A stretch of 64,000 nt of DNA from Paraglaciecola sp. (GTDB taxonomy: Bacteria > Pseudomonadota > Gammaproteobacteria > Enterobacterales > Alteromonadaceae), in NCBI GenBank assembly GCA_009993955.1, contig JAACSL010000001.1:248001-312000 (forward strand). The letters run 5' to 3'. This document shows positions 2,573-10,591 of the stretch, piece by piece. Position 1 is the first letter of the stretch. The number at the start of each line of letters is the position of its first letter. A program made the translations under genes and the position numbers. The notes beneath the pieces are model-generated. The model was not told the origin of the DNA. It made no database searches and was given only the letters and a program-made list of their open reading frames with translations.

Positions 2573-3586
2573 TTGAAAATACTTCTCATCATTTTGATGG
2601 GACTTATCAGTGCGTGTGATTCGTCACCACAACTGGCCAAGGATTTAGAAACTTACCAGCAACGCCTGTCAAACGTGCTTTCATCTCCCACACCCCATTT
2701 TATTCCAGCTCTATTGCCTGCCTATCCGACACTCACCTCACTCGGTGATGACACACCGGACATACTCATTAAACTACATGAATTTACCGACTTACAGTAT
2801 TGTCAATTGGCCACTCTCATCGCCCAGCGCAACACAACACTTGGCAAACTCCAACTGCCGTCAACACGTTTTATCTACGAAAAAAAACTCCTTTATGCTT
2901 TGCAAACTTGTATTGCATTAAGTGATGAACCCGCTTTGCGGGAAAAGTTACAGAGTTGGTATGCACATAAACATGACAATCTTCCGTTTGCTTGGGCATC
3001 CATGCTGCAAAAAAGCCCAGAAATAAAACAAGCCTTATCGCGTAACGCAAATTTTATCAGCGGGACGGAGCAAGATGGATTACAAACAAGTCTTGCTGCA
3101 CTGCAATATTTATTCAAGGTGCAAACGAGCGATGATATAGATAGCACGGTGTTAGAAGAGCACTGGAAAACACTTGCACAGGATGCTTTTCTGGCGAAGT
3201 TATGGCGAACACAAATTTTACTCACACAAAACTTAGCAACCACCACCAAATGGCTAGAAGGGCTAAATGTCACGGCTTATTGCCAAGCCAAGACTCCACC
3301 CAAAAAAGTAGACTATTTGAGTAACGTATTTCGCATGTATTTCATCGAAAAAATTCAGCCTGTCGCCACGCAAATTAATTATTACCACTATCAAGTGAGT
3401 CCAATCTTAGACCGTTTTCTCACACACGCTGCACTGTCGGATGCCTTTAAACACTACATCTCTGAGCAGCATCAAGTTGGTTTCCACGCATACCAGACAA
3501 CGATGCAAGCGCACATTCATTTTTGGCAAACGTTATTCAAAGTCTGCGATATTTCACCGACTCAACTCATCGCGACATCCGCTTAA
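2573..3586 (+). CDS. DUF3080-type lipoprotein
   Basis: A 337-residue protein beginning with a lipoprotein signal: 'LKILLIILMGLISAC', with Cys at about residue 15 in an ISAC lipobox. The mature part is mostly helical, without recognisable catalytic motifs, and starts 'ETYQQRLSNVL'. Length, lipobox and this opening fit the DUF3080 family known from alteromonads, vibrios and Shewanella. Function is unknown; it should be anchored in the inner or outer membrane facing the periplasm. The start codon is TTG and the ribosome site is weak, so the start is less certain than the frame. Its stop overlaps the end of the convergent GMC oxidoreductase gene by four bases. Confidence 0.7.
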   Translation: MKILLIILMGLISACDSSPQLAKDLETYQQRLSNVLSSPTPHFIPALLPAYPTLTSLGDDTPDILIKLHEFTDLQYCQLATLIAQRNTTLGKLQLPSTRFIYEKKLLYALQTCIALSDEPALREKLQSWYAHKHDNLPFAWASMLQKSPEIKQALSRNANFISGTEQDGLQTSLAALQYLFKVQTSDDIDSTVLEEHWKTLAQDAFLAKLWRTQILLTQNLATTTKWLEGLNVTAYCQAKTPPKKVDYLSNVFRMYFIEKIQPVATQINYYHYQVSPILDRFLTHAALSDAFKHYISEQHQVGFHAYQTTMQAHIHFWQTLFKVCDISPTQLIATSA

Positions 3587-5307
3587 AGTTTACCATCAGG
3601 GTCGGGTGAAATACCGGTTATCCCTTCCGCAACCCGTTCAGATAAGGCAGAAATAGTCGCCACAGGATTCGCCCCCACTGCCGTGGGCAATAAAGAGCCG
3701 TCCGCTACATACAAACCACAATAGCCAAATACTTGGCCAAAGGTACTGAGTTCTGCACTGGTTACGCCCTTTGCTGCACTATCCGCAATTCTGCAACCAC
3801 CCAAGGCGTGTACAGTGACATTATGACGCATTGGCCACAGCATGTTGGGTAAAGGAAAAAACGCTTTGGCGTAGGCCCACGATTTGAAGCGCTTGCCCAT
3901 GTTCATAATTGCTTGGTACAGGGGCATATTTTGCTCGTAAGGCCAGGTGATATTGAGTTTGCCCGTACTTTCTAACTGCAGTTTGCCAGCACTATTATCA
4001 ATCCCCATGCAAAGCAAAACGGCCGTGGTATAGGATGCATCATTTTTAAGTACCTCCCGAAAAACATAACCAATCCGCCCAGTACTCACGCCACGAACAA
4101 AACGATTGAATAGACTTTTCAGCATTTGCCATATCCCAGAAAGATGCACTATGCCTGGTTTCAACCCTTCGGTGTACCAAGCTGCAAAGTTAGGGAAGCT
4201 CGCATCTTCTAATATGTAAGCTTGTTTAGGGTCAAATTTATCATACAAGTTGTAATCAATTTTTTGAGTGATGACCGGACCATAATTAGGGTCAGCCGGT
4301 TTTTTACCATCCACAACAAACGATAAAAAGTCACCGTTGCCCGAAAAGTGTTGGCCAAGTTGCGAACTGATGTTTGGCAGACTGCCAAGCACATCACGAC
4401 AGCGCAATAATAATTCATTGGTGCCTAGGGTACCCGCACTCACCACCACTCTTTGGCAGGTGGCTTGTCGTTGAACTTTTTTTGCTTGCAAGTCTAACCA
4501 CATTACCTTGTAACCATGGCTACCATCTGCTTGGCTATCCTCTGCTCCGGCTGCATTTAATGGGATAATTTGCTCCACTAGCGCATGTGTGGTGATTTGG
4601 GCTTTGTATTGATGTTCTGCCACATACAAATAATTTAAGTCAGTGGTATTTTTTGAATGGGTATTGCAACCAACATCACATTCTGCGCAGTAAACACAAG
4701 AGGTTTGCACTGCACCATAACGATTTTTTTCTTGCAAACCGATGTCTAGCGGTCGAGTGAAGTCATTACCAAAAAATACATTGATATCGACCAACTCGGA
4801 TTTGCGTCCCTCATGTTGGGCGAATTCTGCAAACAATTCAGTACGGACTACTTTACGCCGAGGATCGTCAGTTTGCGGCACCGGCCGTGCCCCTAACACT
4901 GATTTTGCCGCCTGATAATAAGGCTGTAGTGTTTCCTTTTTACACGTGGCTGGCCAACGTTCATCAAAAATATGCTCAGGGGGTTGCAAGAATACATTGG
5001 CATAAATCAGAGAACCGCCACCTAAGCCCGCACCAACCACTGCATCCATATGCCCGAAACTGCGAATATCAAACAGGCCAAACATTTCCTTGCTGCCCGC
5101 ATTTTTAGCATCCGGATCTTTTTCATCCACTACGTTCCAGAAATTATTGGCCATATCGTGTGGCGTCCGAGGAAATGATCCCATGGGATAGCGTCTACCA
5201 CGTTCCAAAACTAACACTTTGCCCGGCCACTTTTTTGACAACCGGCAAGCATTGATGGCGCCGCCAAATCCACTACCAATAACGATGGCTTCAAAATCCA
5301 ATTGCAT
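3583..5307 (-). CDS. GMC family oxidoreductase (cholesterol-oxidase-like)
   Basis: 574 residues. The N-terminal FAD-binding 'VIGSGFGGA' is at residues 9-17, with 'LERGRRYPMG' shortly after and 'GAGLGGGSLIYANV' near residue 90. A four-cysteine segment, 'CVYCAECDVGC', lies near residue 205. The C-terminal active-site region has 'VHALGGCRIAD' and 'ANPVATISAL'. This pattern fits the cholesterol-oxidase branch of the glucose-methanol-choline family, flavoenzymes that oxidise alcohols. The cysteine segment is common in large bacterial members and might hold a metal. It is the last gene of a four-gene minus-strand cluster (hydrolase, ADC-like, patatin, GMC), 39 bases after the patatin gene. The substrate is unknown; a sterol or other lipid alcohol is an inference from context. 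Confidence 0.85.
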   Translation of the reverse strand: MQLDFEAIVIGSGFGGAINACRLSKKWPGKVLVLERGRRYPMGSFPRTPHDMANNFWNVVDEKDPDAKNAGSKEMFGLFDIRSFGHMDAVVGAGLGGGSLIYANVFLQPPEHIFDERWPATCKKETLQPYYQAAKSVLGARPVPQTDDPRRKVVRTELFAEFAQHEGRKSELVDINVFFGNDFTRPLDIGLQEKNRYGAVQTSCVYCAECDVGCNTHSKNTTDLNYLYVAEHQYKAQITTHALVEQIIPLNAAGAEDSQADGSHGYKVMWLDLQAKKVQRQATCQRVVVSAGTLGTNELLLRCRDVLGSLPNISSQLGQHFSGNGDFLSFVVDGKKPADPNYGPVITQKIDYNLYDKFDPKQAYILEDASFPNFAAWYTEGLKPGIVHLSGIWQMLKSLFNRFVRGVSTGRIGYVFREVLKNDASYTTAVLLCMGIDNSAGKLQLESTGKLNITWPYEQNMPLYQAIMNMGKRFKSWAYAKAFFPLPNMLWPMRHNVTVHALGGCRIADSAAKGVTSAELSTFGQVFGYCGLYVADGSLLPTAVGANPVATISALSERVAEGITGISPDPDGKL

Positions 5308-5346
5308 AGTTGCTTCCTTTTGAAATCAAACGAGTATTTTTTTAAA

Positions 5347-6918
5347 TTACTTGGCTAATTTAACGTAGCTATCCCACAACTCACCCATGAAAAATTGTCC
5401 GAATTTAATCACTGTTGCTACCTTGTCTATACTTGAATCCGCATTTAATACTTTAATGGTAGAGACCAGTTTTAATAAATCCGTCACCCCCAAAGTTAAG
5501 ATGCCTGCACCAACAATTTCTCCTTCTTTGCTGTCGCCTTTATGCAGGGTAGTAAATAAAGTCGTGGTATCTGTCCACAAATCAAAACCCGCATCATCTT
5601 TGACTTCTTTTTTACCGGCTAAATAGTAATTTTGTTGTTGATGGCTAAAACCCAATTCGTACACCATCAACTTCATGCCTGGCTGTTCATCCGGATAAAA
5701 CAAATTAAAGACTCCAGAATGCGCCATCATGCCCATGCCAAATGGTGTAAAATCAATGGTGCCGGACAAGCGACCAGTGTGCTGCCCGTCTTTAATAAAA
5801 TGATTGATATCATCGATGTCTACTTGTGCATGCATGGCCAATTCAAAGCCTTTGCGTTTACCCAAACTGCTGCCTTGTTTGGGATCAGTGGCAGCCAATG
5901 CAAAACCGCCCGACATCGTTTCTCTAAATTGCAAACCTAGCTTAGCTTCAGTCATTTTTGTTATATAGGGCTCCAGTGGAACCCCCTCCTTAGTATGGTG
6001 ATTTAAATATCGTTGCGCGTCTTGGTAACCCAACTTGATCAATTCAGCATGGGTGATTTGACCGCTGTACAATGCCGGGTCTAAAGGCAAAGGATGTGCT
6101 GGCTTGATAAGGTGCAAGACAATGGGCTTGGTACGGCCAAATACTGATTCTCCCCCCGCTATCCTGGCATTTATTTCTTTAATTTCGCGGATTTCGTTAT
6201 GCAAAGCCGCATTCGCACTCATTTCTAACATCTGCACATAACTGTCTAACACGCCGCTGCGATAGCGAGGAATATTCGCCAAAATCCAAATTAACCAGAT
6301 TTCATCTGCTCCCTGTCTCACCGCTTCGAGTAAATTAGCGTCTTGGATAAAGCCGGAATCCATGTACACCTGCTCATTAATTACAACGGGTTCAAATACT
6401 CCAGGCAAAGACATCCCAGCAATCAAAAAATCTTCAGATATGTGTTGATGGGGGACGACTTCATTGAGTTTCTGGCTAAAATTTCCAACGTTGAAGGTGC
6501 CTTGCATGCCTTCTACACTGCGGATTTTTGCGAAATCTATACCTAAATGCGGAAACACTTTGCTTCGAAATGCTTGGGCACTGCCAACACTTTCAAAATG
6601 GCCGATATCTAAGGCTTTTTGAAAGGGTAAAAATGCCACGGTATCCAACATCGACAGACTAGCCCAACGTGCGCACATCTCGTCAATGTGCAAGCCAGAG
6701 AACAACATAGCTAGGTTTAACGCCCCCCCCGACGTCGCATCAATATGACCAAATTTCAGATCATGGGCAAACAGACACTGCATCGCCCCAGCCGCGTAAG
6801 ACAAACGTAAACCACCGCCTGGTAAAACGAGTGAGCGCTTGATCCCTTGCTCACTTTTTAACAGGGTGCCACATGGTAAATTGTCAGTGAGTGCTGATTT
6901 TTGGTTGGCTTGAATCAT
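5347..6918 (-). CDS. Patatin-like phospholipase with C-terminal beta-rich domain
   Basis: The N-terminal half is a patatin fold: oxyanion loop 'LPGGGLRLSYAAGA', nucleophile elbow 'DATSGGALN' (Ala where the usual first Gly stands, Ser kept), and the catalytic Asp in 'VYMDSGFI' (DSG instead of DGG/DGA). The dyad is therefore present but its surroundings diverge. The last 170 or so residues form a separate domain with 'GTIDFTPFGMG', resembling the beta-rich module found beside GMC oxidoreductases in large fused proteins. I choose ATG 6918 (523 residues), seven bases after the stop of the upstream gene, rather than TTG 6948, which overlaps it. The likely role is acyl-ester hydrolysis on a lipid, working with the neighbouring enzymes. 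Confidence 0.8.
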   Translation of the reverse strand: MIQANQKSALTDNLPCGTLLKSEQGIKRSLVLPGGGLRLSYAAGAMQCLFAHDLKFGHIDATSGGALNLAMLFSGLHIDEMCARWASLSMLDTVAFLPFQKALDIGHFESVGSAQAFRSKVFPHLGIDFAKIRSVEGMQGTFNVGNFSQKLNEVVPHQHISEDFLIAGMSLPGVFEPVVINEQVYMDSGFIQDANLLEAVRQGADEIWLIWILANIPRYRSGVLDSYVQMLEMSANAALHNEIREIKEINARIAGGESVFGRTKPIVLHLIKPAHPLPLDPALYSGQITHAELIKLGYQDAQRYLNHHTKEGVPLEPYITKMTEAKLGLQFRETMSGGFALAATDPKQGSSLGKRKGFELAMHAQVDIDDINHFIKDGQHTGRLSGTIDFTPFGMGMMAHSGVFNLFYPDEQPGMKLMVYELGFSHQQQNYYLAGKKEVKDDAGFDLWTDTTTLFTTLHKGDSKEGEIVGAGILTLGVTDLLKLVSTIKVLNADSSIDKVATVIKFGQFFMGELWDSYVKLAK

Positions 6919-6925
6919 CACAGTT

Positions 6926-7804
6926 TCAGCTATGTTTGGCGGGCACAACCGCGCTGGGTGGGGCTAACCATGCTTCGCTTAAACCAAGATTTACCACTGA
7001 CTCCAGGCCCTCTGGCACTCGTTTAGGTCGTTGTTCTTCGGTTAAAAACCAACTTTCAATGTGGTCATCCAATACCCCATGAATACTGGGGATATAAACG
7101 GTGGCAAGCGGTGTTGATAGATTCAGGGCTTTTAAGGCTTGTAAACGTGGGTGGTCGCCAATCAGAAAACGTGCTTTTGCTTTAGAGAACAAGCTAAACC
7201 CTACTTTATTTTGTAGATATATGTCGGACTTCATGAGCATACCGCGGAAACTGCAATAATTTGATGCTTTGATCTTGAGTGGCCAAATAACCTTACTCGG
7301 CTTTTCAATCTCTATATAGGTAACTAGTTTACCGTCCAAATCGTACTGGCTGCTGGCAATCTTGCCATTGTCTTTGAAATCTAGGTTGGCCTGATGCTTT
7401 GGCATACCCCAAATACCTTTGCCACCTTTCACTGATATCTCTGAGGAAACAGGTAAATCAATCACATATTGTCCGGTTTTAAACCAACGTTGAAATACCG
7501 CTGGCAAAAAGCGTGGCGCGGGAGACTGACCGTGGGTGCAGGCAATAGCGATACTGTATTCAACATAGGCACCAATAGTGGTGTGTCGATAATCAATGAC
7601 AGTGATCACTAGTAGCGCATTTTTCCAGAGTATCAGCGGATGAATCCCCTTGGGTAAAAATTGCCGAGCCTGCTGGGGATCAACAGGGAAAACCGCCATT
7701 AATGCTGGGGAGTCAATGGCATCAACTGGCAAAGTAAATTCAATCCCATCAACCAATGCTTTTTGTTTGGTGTAGGCTGTTATTCTGTCGGGTATGAGTG
7801 CCAT
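6926..7804 (-). CDS. Acetoacetate decarboxylase family protein
   Basis: 292 residues with the acetoacetate-decarboxylase-like fold: 'FPVDPQQARQFLP' near residue 39, 'VITVIDYRHTTIGAYVEYSIAI' in the first half, and 'GIWGMPKHQANLDF' near the middle. In the family's enzymes a Lys forms a Schiff base with a beta-keto acid; the Lys of 'MPKHQ' is the candidate here. Many relatives are not true decarboxylases but act on larger keto-acid or lipid-like substrates. It sits 60 bases after the (restored) hydrolase end and just before the patatin gene, so it is very likely in the same transcript. Its exact reaction is unknown. Confidence 0.8.
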   Translation of the reverse strand: MALIPDRITAYTKQKALVDGIEFTLPVDAIDSPALMAVFPVDPQQARQFLPKGIHPLILWKNALLVITVIDYRHTTIGAYVEYSIAIACTHGQSPAPRFLPAVFQRWFKTGQYVIDLPVSSEISVKGGKGIWGMPKHQANLDFKDNGKIASSQYDLDGKLVTYIEIEKPSKVIWPLKIKASNYCSFRGMLMKSDIYLQNKVGFSLFSKAKARFLIGDHPRLQALKALNLSTPLATVYIPSIHGVLDDHIESWFLTEEQRPKRVPEGLESVVNLGLSEAWLAPPSAVVPAKHS

Positions 7805-7863
7805 GTAAAATCCCTCCGCTGTTCAAGTCCAGTTTTTATATTCATTGTTGATTTACATTCACG

Positions 7864-8912
7864 TCAATGCACAGCCAGTTCAGCCAAGATTGTGGGGAGC
7901 GTATCTCGCGCTGCATCTTTACCCATAAAAACATCGAGGTGGCTGTACTTTGGAAAAATGTGCAGGCTATGGGCTTTGTTAGAATGTTGGCACATAAAAG
8001 CGTAGCTTTTGACTTGGCTTTCTGGCAAAAAACATAAGTTTTTTCCCCCGCTAAAAATGCAAACCTAGCGTCAGTTTTTGGGGCTTGGCCAACAAAGCTA
8101 TGAGGTAACTGGCTGAAGTTATCTACACTGCTCAAAAATCCCTGCTGCACACACTCACGGATCTGTTTGAAAAATAACATGGGTACTTCGGCAAATTCTT
8201 GTTGCAACCAAGCATGTGTTTCTGCATTGATGTTTTCATGCCGCCAAAGTGCAGGACAACCACTGCCATAAACAAAACTCACTTGTTTACATACTGGGTT
8301 ATCACACTCATGATGACTTAGGTTCACCAGTAGACGCAGACTTTTTGCGATTAAGGTTGGCGCATGTAAACCCCATTGGGGATTCAAATAATCTGTCAAC
8401 TTGGCTACCAGTGGCACCATAAAACGTAATTTGGTGGCAGACCAAGCGGGTACGATGGGATGTAAAGAGACGGCATTGCTGACAATGGTATGCACCGCTG
8501 GGACTAAACCTGCCACCGCGGACATGGCAAAACTGGTGGAGCCCTGACAGTGAATAATGGCTTTTAGGCTCGTGGCGCCTGTTTCTTGCAAGATCTTGTT
8601 CACGGCAGCAGGATGGTCATATACCGCTGCCTGATCGAGGGTCCATTTGCTGGCTTTAAGATCTATGCTGGCACGCCAATTTTCTAACCAAACGTCATAC
8701 CCCTCTTCAATGAGCGCATCAACAATGGTGGTTTTTACAGGAGCGCGATAGATGTTGGCACGTACTCCAGCACCGTGCACAAGGATCACAGGCCCCTTCG
8801 AGATATTGTCAGGGTTGCGTACATTAATTAAATTTAATGCCATGCCGTCACCCGCTAAAAACGGCACGACTTTTTCTACATAGTGGTGTTGAGCGGCTTG
8901 CACATTATTCAT
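7864..8912 (-). pseudogene. Alpha/beta hydrolase of the GMC-associated type, frameshifted near C-terminus
   Basis: The N-terminal 'GPVILVHGAGVRANIY' and 'WLENWRASIDL' identify an alpha/beta hydrolase like those found beside, or fused to, cholesterol-oxidase-type enzymes. The nucleophile elbow reads 'IIHCQGST', placing Cys where most hydrolases have Ser. The track's ORF ends at 7842 after an odd tail. In the neighbouring frame, starting at the A6 run near 8035-8041, the expected end appears: 'NLCFLPES', then 'FPKYSHLDVFMGKDA' holding the catalytic His, stopping at 7864. One missing A therefore breaks the gene. It could be a real mutation, slippage at the A-run, or a sequencing error. It is the first gene of the minus-strand lipid cluster. 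Confidence 0.82.
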
Positions 8913-9254: not shown

Positions 9255-9331
9255 ACAACCGTAGCTCAGTTGGTTAGAGCACTACCTTGACATGGTAGGG
9301 GTCGGTGGTTCGAGTCCACTCGGTTGTACCA
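9255..9331 (+). tRNA. tRNA-Val (anticodon GAC)
   Basis: A 77-base cloverleaf with encoded CCA. The acceptor stem ACAACCG pairs with CGGTTGT, the D arm is GCTCAGTTGGTTAGAGC, and the anticodon stem CTACC/GGTAG encloses loop TTGACAT with GAC at 9289-9291. The T arm contains GGTTCGAGTCC. GAC reads the valine codons GUC and GUU. It has its own promoter upstream. No clear terminator follows, so some transcripts may run into the patatin gene 195 bases downstream. Confidence 0.95.
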
Positions 9332-9526: not shown

Positions 9527-10591
9527 ATGAGTTTGATCAATATGTTAGATATTTACGCTGGCACCAACGCCAAAAAAATACTAGAGCGTGATGGTTTTAA
9601 AAGTAGTCATTTTTCAGCCTTTTTAGGCGCAAGTGGCGGCCCCAAGTGGTTCACCCTGTTTGGTTTAGATAAATATTTATTTGGTGAGTTTTTCAAAGAT
9701 CGTCAACAAAACTTGGATTTAATTGGCTCCTCAGCGGGTGCATTTCGCGCTGCATGTTTTGCCCAGCAGGATCCTGTGGCAGCTATTTCTCGTTTGGCCA
9801 AATATTATTCTGAAACCGTTTATTCAAACAACGTGACTCCCGCTGAAATCAGCACAAAAGCGAGAGTGCTGTTACAACAGGTGTTGGGTGAATCAGGCGC
9901 ACGCGAAATCATCGACAACCAAATATTCAAAGCGCATTTTATAGTTGCCAAAACCAAAGGCTTGGTGGCCACCGAAAAGAAGCCGTTGCAGTTGGCCGGT
10001 TTACTGCAAAGCTATGCGTTAAATCGCGTCAATCGACGACTGTTACGCAAACAGTATGAGCGCTATGTCTATCAAAACCCTCGTAGCTCGCTTGAGATCT
10101 CAGATGCTTATAAATTTAATACCCACTACGTTGATTTAACCGAAGAGAATCTACAAGAGGCTTTGTTAGCGTCTGGGTCAATTCCATTGGTCATGCAAGG
10201 TATTCGAAATATTCCTGGCTCTCCCACTGGCATGTACCGAGATGGCGGCATCATCGATTACCACTTCGATATTAAATTAAACAACCAAAAAGGTTTAACA
10301 CTCTATCCGCACTTCAATGCCAATCCAAAAGCAGGTTGGTTTGATAAGGGCCTAAAGCGAAACGTTTCCCCCGATAATTATTGTGATATCGTCATGTTAG
10401 TGCCTTCTCAGCGTTTTATTAGTCAATTACCCATGAGTAAAATTCCTGATCGTGAAGACTTCACAAAGTTGTCTGCGCCAGACAGGATTGCTTATTGGCA
10501 AACGGTATTACGAGAAACAGAAAGGCTTGCTGAATTTTTTAATTTGTTTTTAATACAACCTGATATTGTCAAGATTAAAACCTTAGACTAA
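9527..10591 (+). CDS. Patatin-like phospholipase family protein
   Basis: 354 residues with all patatin landmarks in canonical form: an oxyanion loop around 'GASGGPKW' near residue 34, the nucleophile elbow 'GSSAGAFR' (GxSxG) near residue 67, and the catalytic Asp in 'YRDGGIIDYH' near residue 240. It has no signal peptide or transmembrane segment, so it is probably cytoplasmic or peripheral. Patatins cleave acyl esters of phospholipids or other lipids; this group is uncharacterised. It differs clearly from the divergent patatin at 5347-6918 and is not in the same operon. ATG 9527 is used; ATG 9542 is the alternative. Confidence 0.85.
   Translation: MSLINMLDIYAGTNAKKILERDGFKSSHFSAFLGASGGPKWFTLFGLDKYLFGEFFKDRQQNLDLIGSSAGAFRAACFAQQDPVAAISRLAKYYSETVYSNNVTPAEISTKARVLLQQVLGESGAREIIDNQIFKAHFIVAKTKGLVATEKKPLQLAGLLQSYALNRVNRRLLRKQYERYVYQNPRSSLEISDAYKFNTHYVDLTEENLQEALLASGSIPLVMQGIRNIPGSPTGMYRDGGIIDYHFDIKLNNQKGLTLYPHFNANPKAGWFDKGLKRNVSPDNYCDIVMLVPSQRFISQLPMSKIPDREDFTKLSAPDRIAYWQTVLRETERLAEFFNLFLIQPDIVKIKTLD

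Follow-up and report, generated by a model that had tools for sequence, protein, structure and literature searches.

Known enzyme families combined with an unnamed domain in a conserved, uncharacterised gene cluster of Paraglaciecola and other bacteria

Four minus-strand genes of Paraglaciecola sp. raise the question of whether enzymes from generic lipid-related families that lie side by side form one system and, if so, which kind of lipid such a system would process. The genes form a single run from position 8912 to position 3583 of a 64,000-nucleotide stretch (contig JAACSL010000001.1, positions 248,001 to 312,000; here called the window) of a 4.16 Mb genome. In the order of reading they encode an alpha/beta hydrolase (HYD), an ADC-like protein (ADC), a patatin (PAT) extended by a beta-rich domain (BETA), and a cholesterol-oxidase-like GMC enzyme (GMC). 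This short-gapped run had been described in an earlier note as a lipid-processing cluster resembling a split multidomain enzyme, and its layout was borne out: all four genes are present, three of the four with Pfam matches above the cut-off, and the patatin is followed by about 220 further residues which lack a Pfam match and are predicted to be beta-rich. The intergenic gaps measure 37 bp (HYD-ADC), 7 bp (ADC-PAT, with the ATG at position 6918 as the patatin start) and 39 bp (PAT-GMC). A terminator scan found no terminator-like site in any of the three gaps; the counts of the promoter and terminator scan were at shuffle level, and the scan is informative only for these terminator-free gaps. 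As set out below, the cluster is conserved but uncharacterised, and it combines known enzyme families with a domain that has no name.

For the analysis of conservation, loci were collected by a scan for the BETA domain with one genome per species, 80 loci were kept of 173 relatives, and domains were called with profiles built in this analysis. All five domains (HYD, ADC, PAT, BETA and GMC) co-occur in 29 loci from several genera and phyla, so the conserved neighbourhood that the earlier note had proposed to look for does exist. The order HYD, ADC, PAT-BETA, GMC is the commonest split order and was found in 20 of the 29 loci, 17 of them plain and three with a metallophosphoesterase after GMC. 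According to their records the hosts include Methylococcaceae, Nitrosomonas, Azotobacter, Rheinheimera, Shewanella, and Burkholderia and relatives, and among metagenome-assembled genomes (MAGs), whose assignments may be affected by contamination, Nitrospirota, Acidobacteria-like groups and the BD2-11 clade. If isolates alone are counted, the full set occurs in beta- and gammaproteobacteria and a set without ADC in Actinomycetota (Planobispora). The pairwise distances of ADC, HYD and patatin are correlated (Spearman 0.68-0.74, reached in 0 of 500 permutations), which indicates that these three travel as a unit. Matches to the window ADC were few: of 274 genomes from across the class only 3 had one, and strong matches were obtained in only 3 of 150 genomes of the family, all three within this cluster.

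A second line of evidence comes from gene fusions. In Pseudomonas, Leptospira, Azospirillum, Rhizobium, Bernardetia and others, GMC, BETA and HYD are joined in one chain of about 1150 aa, annotated as 'alpha/beta fold hydrolase' or as 'GMC oxidoreductase' and likewise uncharacterised. The fusion of a GMC enzyme with this hydrolase type had been stated in the earlier note, and it turned out to include the additional domain of the patatin as well. A structural model of the fused chain (pLDDT 87.8, pTM 0.70) predicts confident domains connected by a low-confidence BETA-HYD linker (residues 788-802). The window does not belong to the fused family, as its homologous domains are encoded by separate genes, and the fused chain contains neither ADC nor patatin and often lies beside a di-haem cytochrome or a metallophosphoesterase. 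The description as a split multidomain enzyme thus applies at most to GMC, BETA and HYD and not to ADC and patatin, that is, to three of the five domains. Genome G511 contains a split cluster without GMC together with a fused chain. One Pseudomonas chain is followed by genes for a di-haem RoxA-like cytochrome and a metallophosphoesterase (L094:8243-14966), and on a plasmid of Rhizobium leguminosarum (L171:1-9701) the fused chain is located near genes for PhaE (a PHA-synthase subunit), an iron alcohol dehydrogenase and a CoA-transferase.

The domain common to the split and fused forms, BETA, has no sequence match in Pfam, NCBIfam or the PDB. Its AlphaFold model (pLDDT 87) consists of eight strands and several helices. 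BETA was found alone and in the arrangements PAT-BETA, BETA-GMC, GMC-BETA, ADC-BETA and GMC-BETA-HYD. In loci with a BETA-GMC fusion the patatin-borne BETA shares 24-29% identity with the window domain and the GMC-borne copy 58-60%; since the former has drifted while the latter was kept, the canonical BETA seems, judging from these sequences, to move between partner enzymes.

With respect to the individual enzymes, HYD matched Abhydrolase_1 with an E-value of 3.3e-5, just under the Pfam cut-off. In profile searches its hits were to PHA synthase (2.1e-5) and, more strongly, to lysosomal and gastric acid lipases (3.7e-14); it has the alpha/beta hydrolase fold in common with both. In the alignment a Cys (H-C-x-G; HCQGS in the window copy), an Asn and a His are each conserved in 38 of 38 sequences, the Asn being assigned to the acid position by its spacing relative to acid lipases and not by structure. 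The invariant Cys replaces the Ser nucleophile of the acid lipases and is shared with PHA synthase, from which HYD is set apart by the Asn in place of the catalytic Asp of the Cys-Asp-His triad and by a score of 16.4 of the 365.3 bits required by the NCBIfam cut-off. By its residues HYD looks more like a Cys acyltransferase or thioesterase than like a Ser lipase.

The GMC enzyme matched both superfamily domains above cut-off, GMC_oxred_N (PF00732; E 2.1e-12, 47.8 bits against 23) and GMC_oxred_C (PF05199; E 2.1e-10, 41.7 against 24.6). Class I cholesterol oxidases (Streptomyces/Brevibacterium) are its closest solved relatives, with a profile match at about 1e-67, and their active-site His and Asn are retained in 40 of 40 sequences. 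In contrast to cholesterol oxidase, the GMC enzyme has no obvious secretion and carries an additional CxxCxxCxxxC motif, which recalls iron-sulphur sites, is complete in 34 of 40 sequences and is absent from the aligned cholesterol oxidase. Two GMC subfamilies, one with about 60-76% identity to the window protein and the other with about 30-38%, occupy the same slot in the cluster, and one locus (L044) carries both. The patatin (PF01734, E 3.5e-15, 57.2 bits against 27.7) shares the oxyanion GGGxR and the Ser and Asp dyad with patatin-like phospholipases, each kept in 23 of 23 sequences, and differs from them by the C-terminal BETA that it has in common with its partner enzymes. A second, different patatin-like gene (PF01734, E 5.1e-8) lies at 9527-10591, beyond the tRNA-Val gene, and is also present in several Paraglaciecola relatives. 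The ADC-like protein belongs to the acetoacetate decarboxylase superfamily (PF06314, E 2.6e-17, 63.6 bits against 29.8) and has no relative in the PDB by sequence profile; its Lys and Glu are invariant (24/24), the Lys being taken as the Schiff-base Lys by motif position and not by alignment to a solved ADC.

On the basis of the conserved gene order, the interchangeable BETA fusions and the invariant active-site residues, the four genes may represent a version of a widespread cytosolic lipid-processing module whose parts cooperate via BETA, a reading which we put forward tentatively and with slightly more doubt than confidence. In such a module the patatin would release or transfer a fatty acyl group by means of its Ser and Asp, and HYD, acting like a PHA synthase and not like a lipase, would bind an acyl group to its Cys in thioester linkage before passing it on or releasing it. 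The GMC flavoenzyme would oxidise the bound lipid at a hydroxyl, and with the resulting carbonyl the Lys of the ADC-like protein could form a Schiff base, most likely for the decarboxylation of a beta-keto acid. The BETA barrel would most likely hold and pass on the hydrophobic substrate, or dock the enzymes together. A hydroxy- or keto-acyl lipid would fit a set made up of acyl enzymes, a flavoenzyme that oxidises alcohols and an enzyme that forms a Schiff base through its Lys, and a fatty-acid-derived (hydroxy)acyl lipid is a likelier substrate class than a sterol.

Several observations weigh against this reading. Classical acetoacetate decarboxylase has a Lys-Lys pair in its active site; in all 24 ADC-like proteins the second Lys is a His that directly follows the first, and the ADC superfamily includes enzymes other than decarboxylases. 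The searches turned up no family member whose substrate is known, nor any paper in the literature describing the cluster; a search on methyl ketones yielded general background only. The distances of BETA and HYD are only weakly correlated (0.06), in part owing to the divergence of the patatin-borne copy in loci whose GMC carries another, fused BETA. The HYD open reading frame (ORF) as listed leaves the correct frame after about residue 290, and with this the catalytic His is lost. The best Foldseek hit of the BETA model was a designed barrel at E 0.03, which is not convincing as a structural relative, and because of this the carrier or docking role is one that we infer; weak matches to lipocalins and to the ADC-superfamily protein MppR had low TM scores and were set aside. 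It is rather doubtful, though conceivable, that BETA is a new mobile lipid-carrier or docking domain which turns unrelated lipid enzymes (a Cys-type acyltransferase, a GMC flavoenzyme, an ADC-like lyase and a patatin) into a small assembly line in many phyla, with a role like that of carrier proteins and the architecture of a beta barrel.

The HYD reading frame bears on whether the module is functional in this organism at all. HYD is frameshifted at an A6 run, whereas its relatives carry a single uninterrupted frame; when aligned to the window, the proteins of two Paraglaciecola relatives follow one frame to about 8004 and another over 8082-7876. The conserved end, which includes the catalytic His, lies at 7864 in the -1 frame and not at 7842. 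The break is thus due either to an assembly error or to decay of the module, as seen in two relatives. A real frameshift in a decaying, non-functional cluster is a possibility of some weight, although we regard it as unlikely overall: it would deprive HYD of its catalytic His, and the metallophosphoesterase of the nearest split clusters has no relative in the window genome. However, a kinase-like gene close to the window's left end (634-1501), intact in relatives, is also split into two overlapping ORFs by a frameshift at about 955, and the two frameshifts together favour a base-level assembly error. Moreover, the other three genes, ADC, PAT-BETA and GMC, are unbroken and share 69-76% identity with the copies of locus L031. 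The history of the site, on the other side, speaks for decay. The slot between DUF3080 and tRNA-Val was read in 20 Paraglaciecola relatives with DUF3080; it is empty in 10, with the two boundary genes about 0.1-0.3 kb apart and no cluster genes, and a further seven have no cluster. The full cluster occupies the slot in one relative (L147). Trimmed versions occur in two: in L149 ADC and the patatin domain were lost and BETA, HYD and GMC retained, and in a P. arctica contig (L143:7142-8224) an internal deletion fuses the start of HYD (about its first 64 residues) in frame to a patatin remnant and BETA in an ORF of 361 aa, with GMC and BETA retained. GMC and BETA hence persist in the trimmed clusters while ADC and patatin are lost, which counts in favour of the module reading. 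The presence of the cluster at the same site in four species suggests that it was present in an ancestor and then repeatedly lost, although insertion events are also conceivable.

The genes accompanying the cluster in other loci were compared as well. Many loci add a metallophosphoesterase (of three sequence types) or a PhoD-like phosphatase, others Anthrone_oxy/DUF4345 membrane proteins, and the Methylococcaceae locus L034 has phospholipid-synthesis neighbours (CDP-alcohol transferase, CdsA- and PlsC-type genes). These last genes, the metallophosphoesterases and the RoxA-like cytochrome of Pseudomonas are lipid-related neighbours and speak for the module reading. A cytochrome P450 gene lies shortly downstream of the cluster in a Chloracidobacterium MAG (L036:10375-11940). 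In gammaproteobacterial loci (L057:12379-15983, L061:12472-15973 and L042:12512-16109) a metallophosphoesterase and then a CHAT-domain protein follow GMC. This arrangement, which recurs in several loci including those of Rheinheimera, Azotobacter and Methylobacter, and the patchy distribution of the cluster would suit a stress, defence or signalling island in which patatin and phosphoesterase act on membrane lipids under the control of a protease. Such an island is improbable, as none of the four window proteins has a PADLOC match, the CHAT protein is only a partial SAVED_CHAT match, the CHAT gene occurs in a minority of loci and the core consists of metabolic enzymes; a defence system was therefore set aside.

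Equally poor prospects are given to the modification or degradation of sterols or hopanoids, in which HYD would cleave a sterol ester, GMC would oxidise the 3-OH and ADC would decarboxylate. HYD is distant kin of the lysosomal acid lipase/cholesteryl ester hydrolase and GMC of cholesterol oxidase, and a squalene/hopene cyclase C-domain match was obtained in 18 of 34 chosen cluster-bearing genomes. No such match was found, however, in the cluster-bearing Paraglaciecola relatives, in genomes G024 and G068 or in Rheinheimera, Shewanella and Pseudomonas, and the window genome has neither a squalene/hopene/oxidosqualene cyclase C domain nor a squalene/phytoene synthase, both searches being positive in control genomes. 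GMC reaches only 223.6 of the 850 bits of the cholesterol oxidase equivalog NF058674, and by eye none of the four window proteins has an obvious secretion signal. The earlier note had named a sterol-like or other lipid as the possible substrate; a sterol or hopanoid made by the cell is unlikely given the missing cyclase and synthase and is disfavoured here, and an imported one could still serve. Finally, chance neighbours without joint function, for which nothing speaks beyond the generic nature of the single families, are refuted by the recurrence of five domains in 29 loci, the gene fusions and the correlated distances.

Features of the cluster and its boundaries in the window
Feature	Position	Strand	Remarks
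HYD ORF as listed	7842..8912	-	acid-lipase/PHA-synthase-like; Cys nucleophile in HCQGS; C-terminus out of frame
HYD conserved C-terminal end	7864..8064	-	-1 frame, NLCFLPESQ...YSHLDVFMGKDAA; frameshift at A6 run 8044-8039
ADC-like protein, 292 aa	6926..7804	-	invariant Glu and Lys (GMPKHQ)
PAT-BETA	5347..6918	-	patatin = residues 1-300 (GGGxR, TSGG Ser, DSG Asp), followed by BETA; start ATG 6918
BETA domain, about 220 aa	5347..6018	-	predicted eight-strand meander barrel; seemingly a mobile module
GMC FAD oxidoreductase, cholesterol-oxidase-like	3583..5307	-	CxxCxxCxxxC motif; catalytic His/Asn
DUF3080 gene	2573..3586	+	conserved left boundary of the slot; convergent with GMC, stop overlap 3583-3586
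tRNA-Val(GAC)	9255..9331	+	conserved right boundary of the slot, upstream of HYD

Taken as a whole, gene order and fusions bind four generic 'lipid' families into one system, which is masked by the labels of its single families ('alpha/beta hydrolase', 'GMC oxidoreductase', 'hypothetical protein') and for which BETA provides a handle for its location in any genome. Experimental tests could start from the BETA barrel and from the Cys-His-Asn hydrolase, and culturable carriers of the split or the fused form are available in Nitrosomonas, Azotobacter, Methylobacter, Rheinheimera and Pseudomonas.

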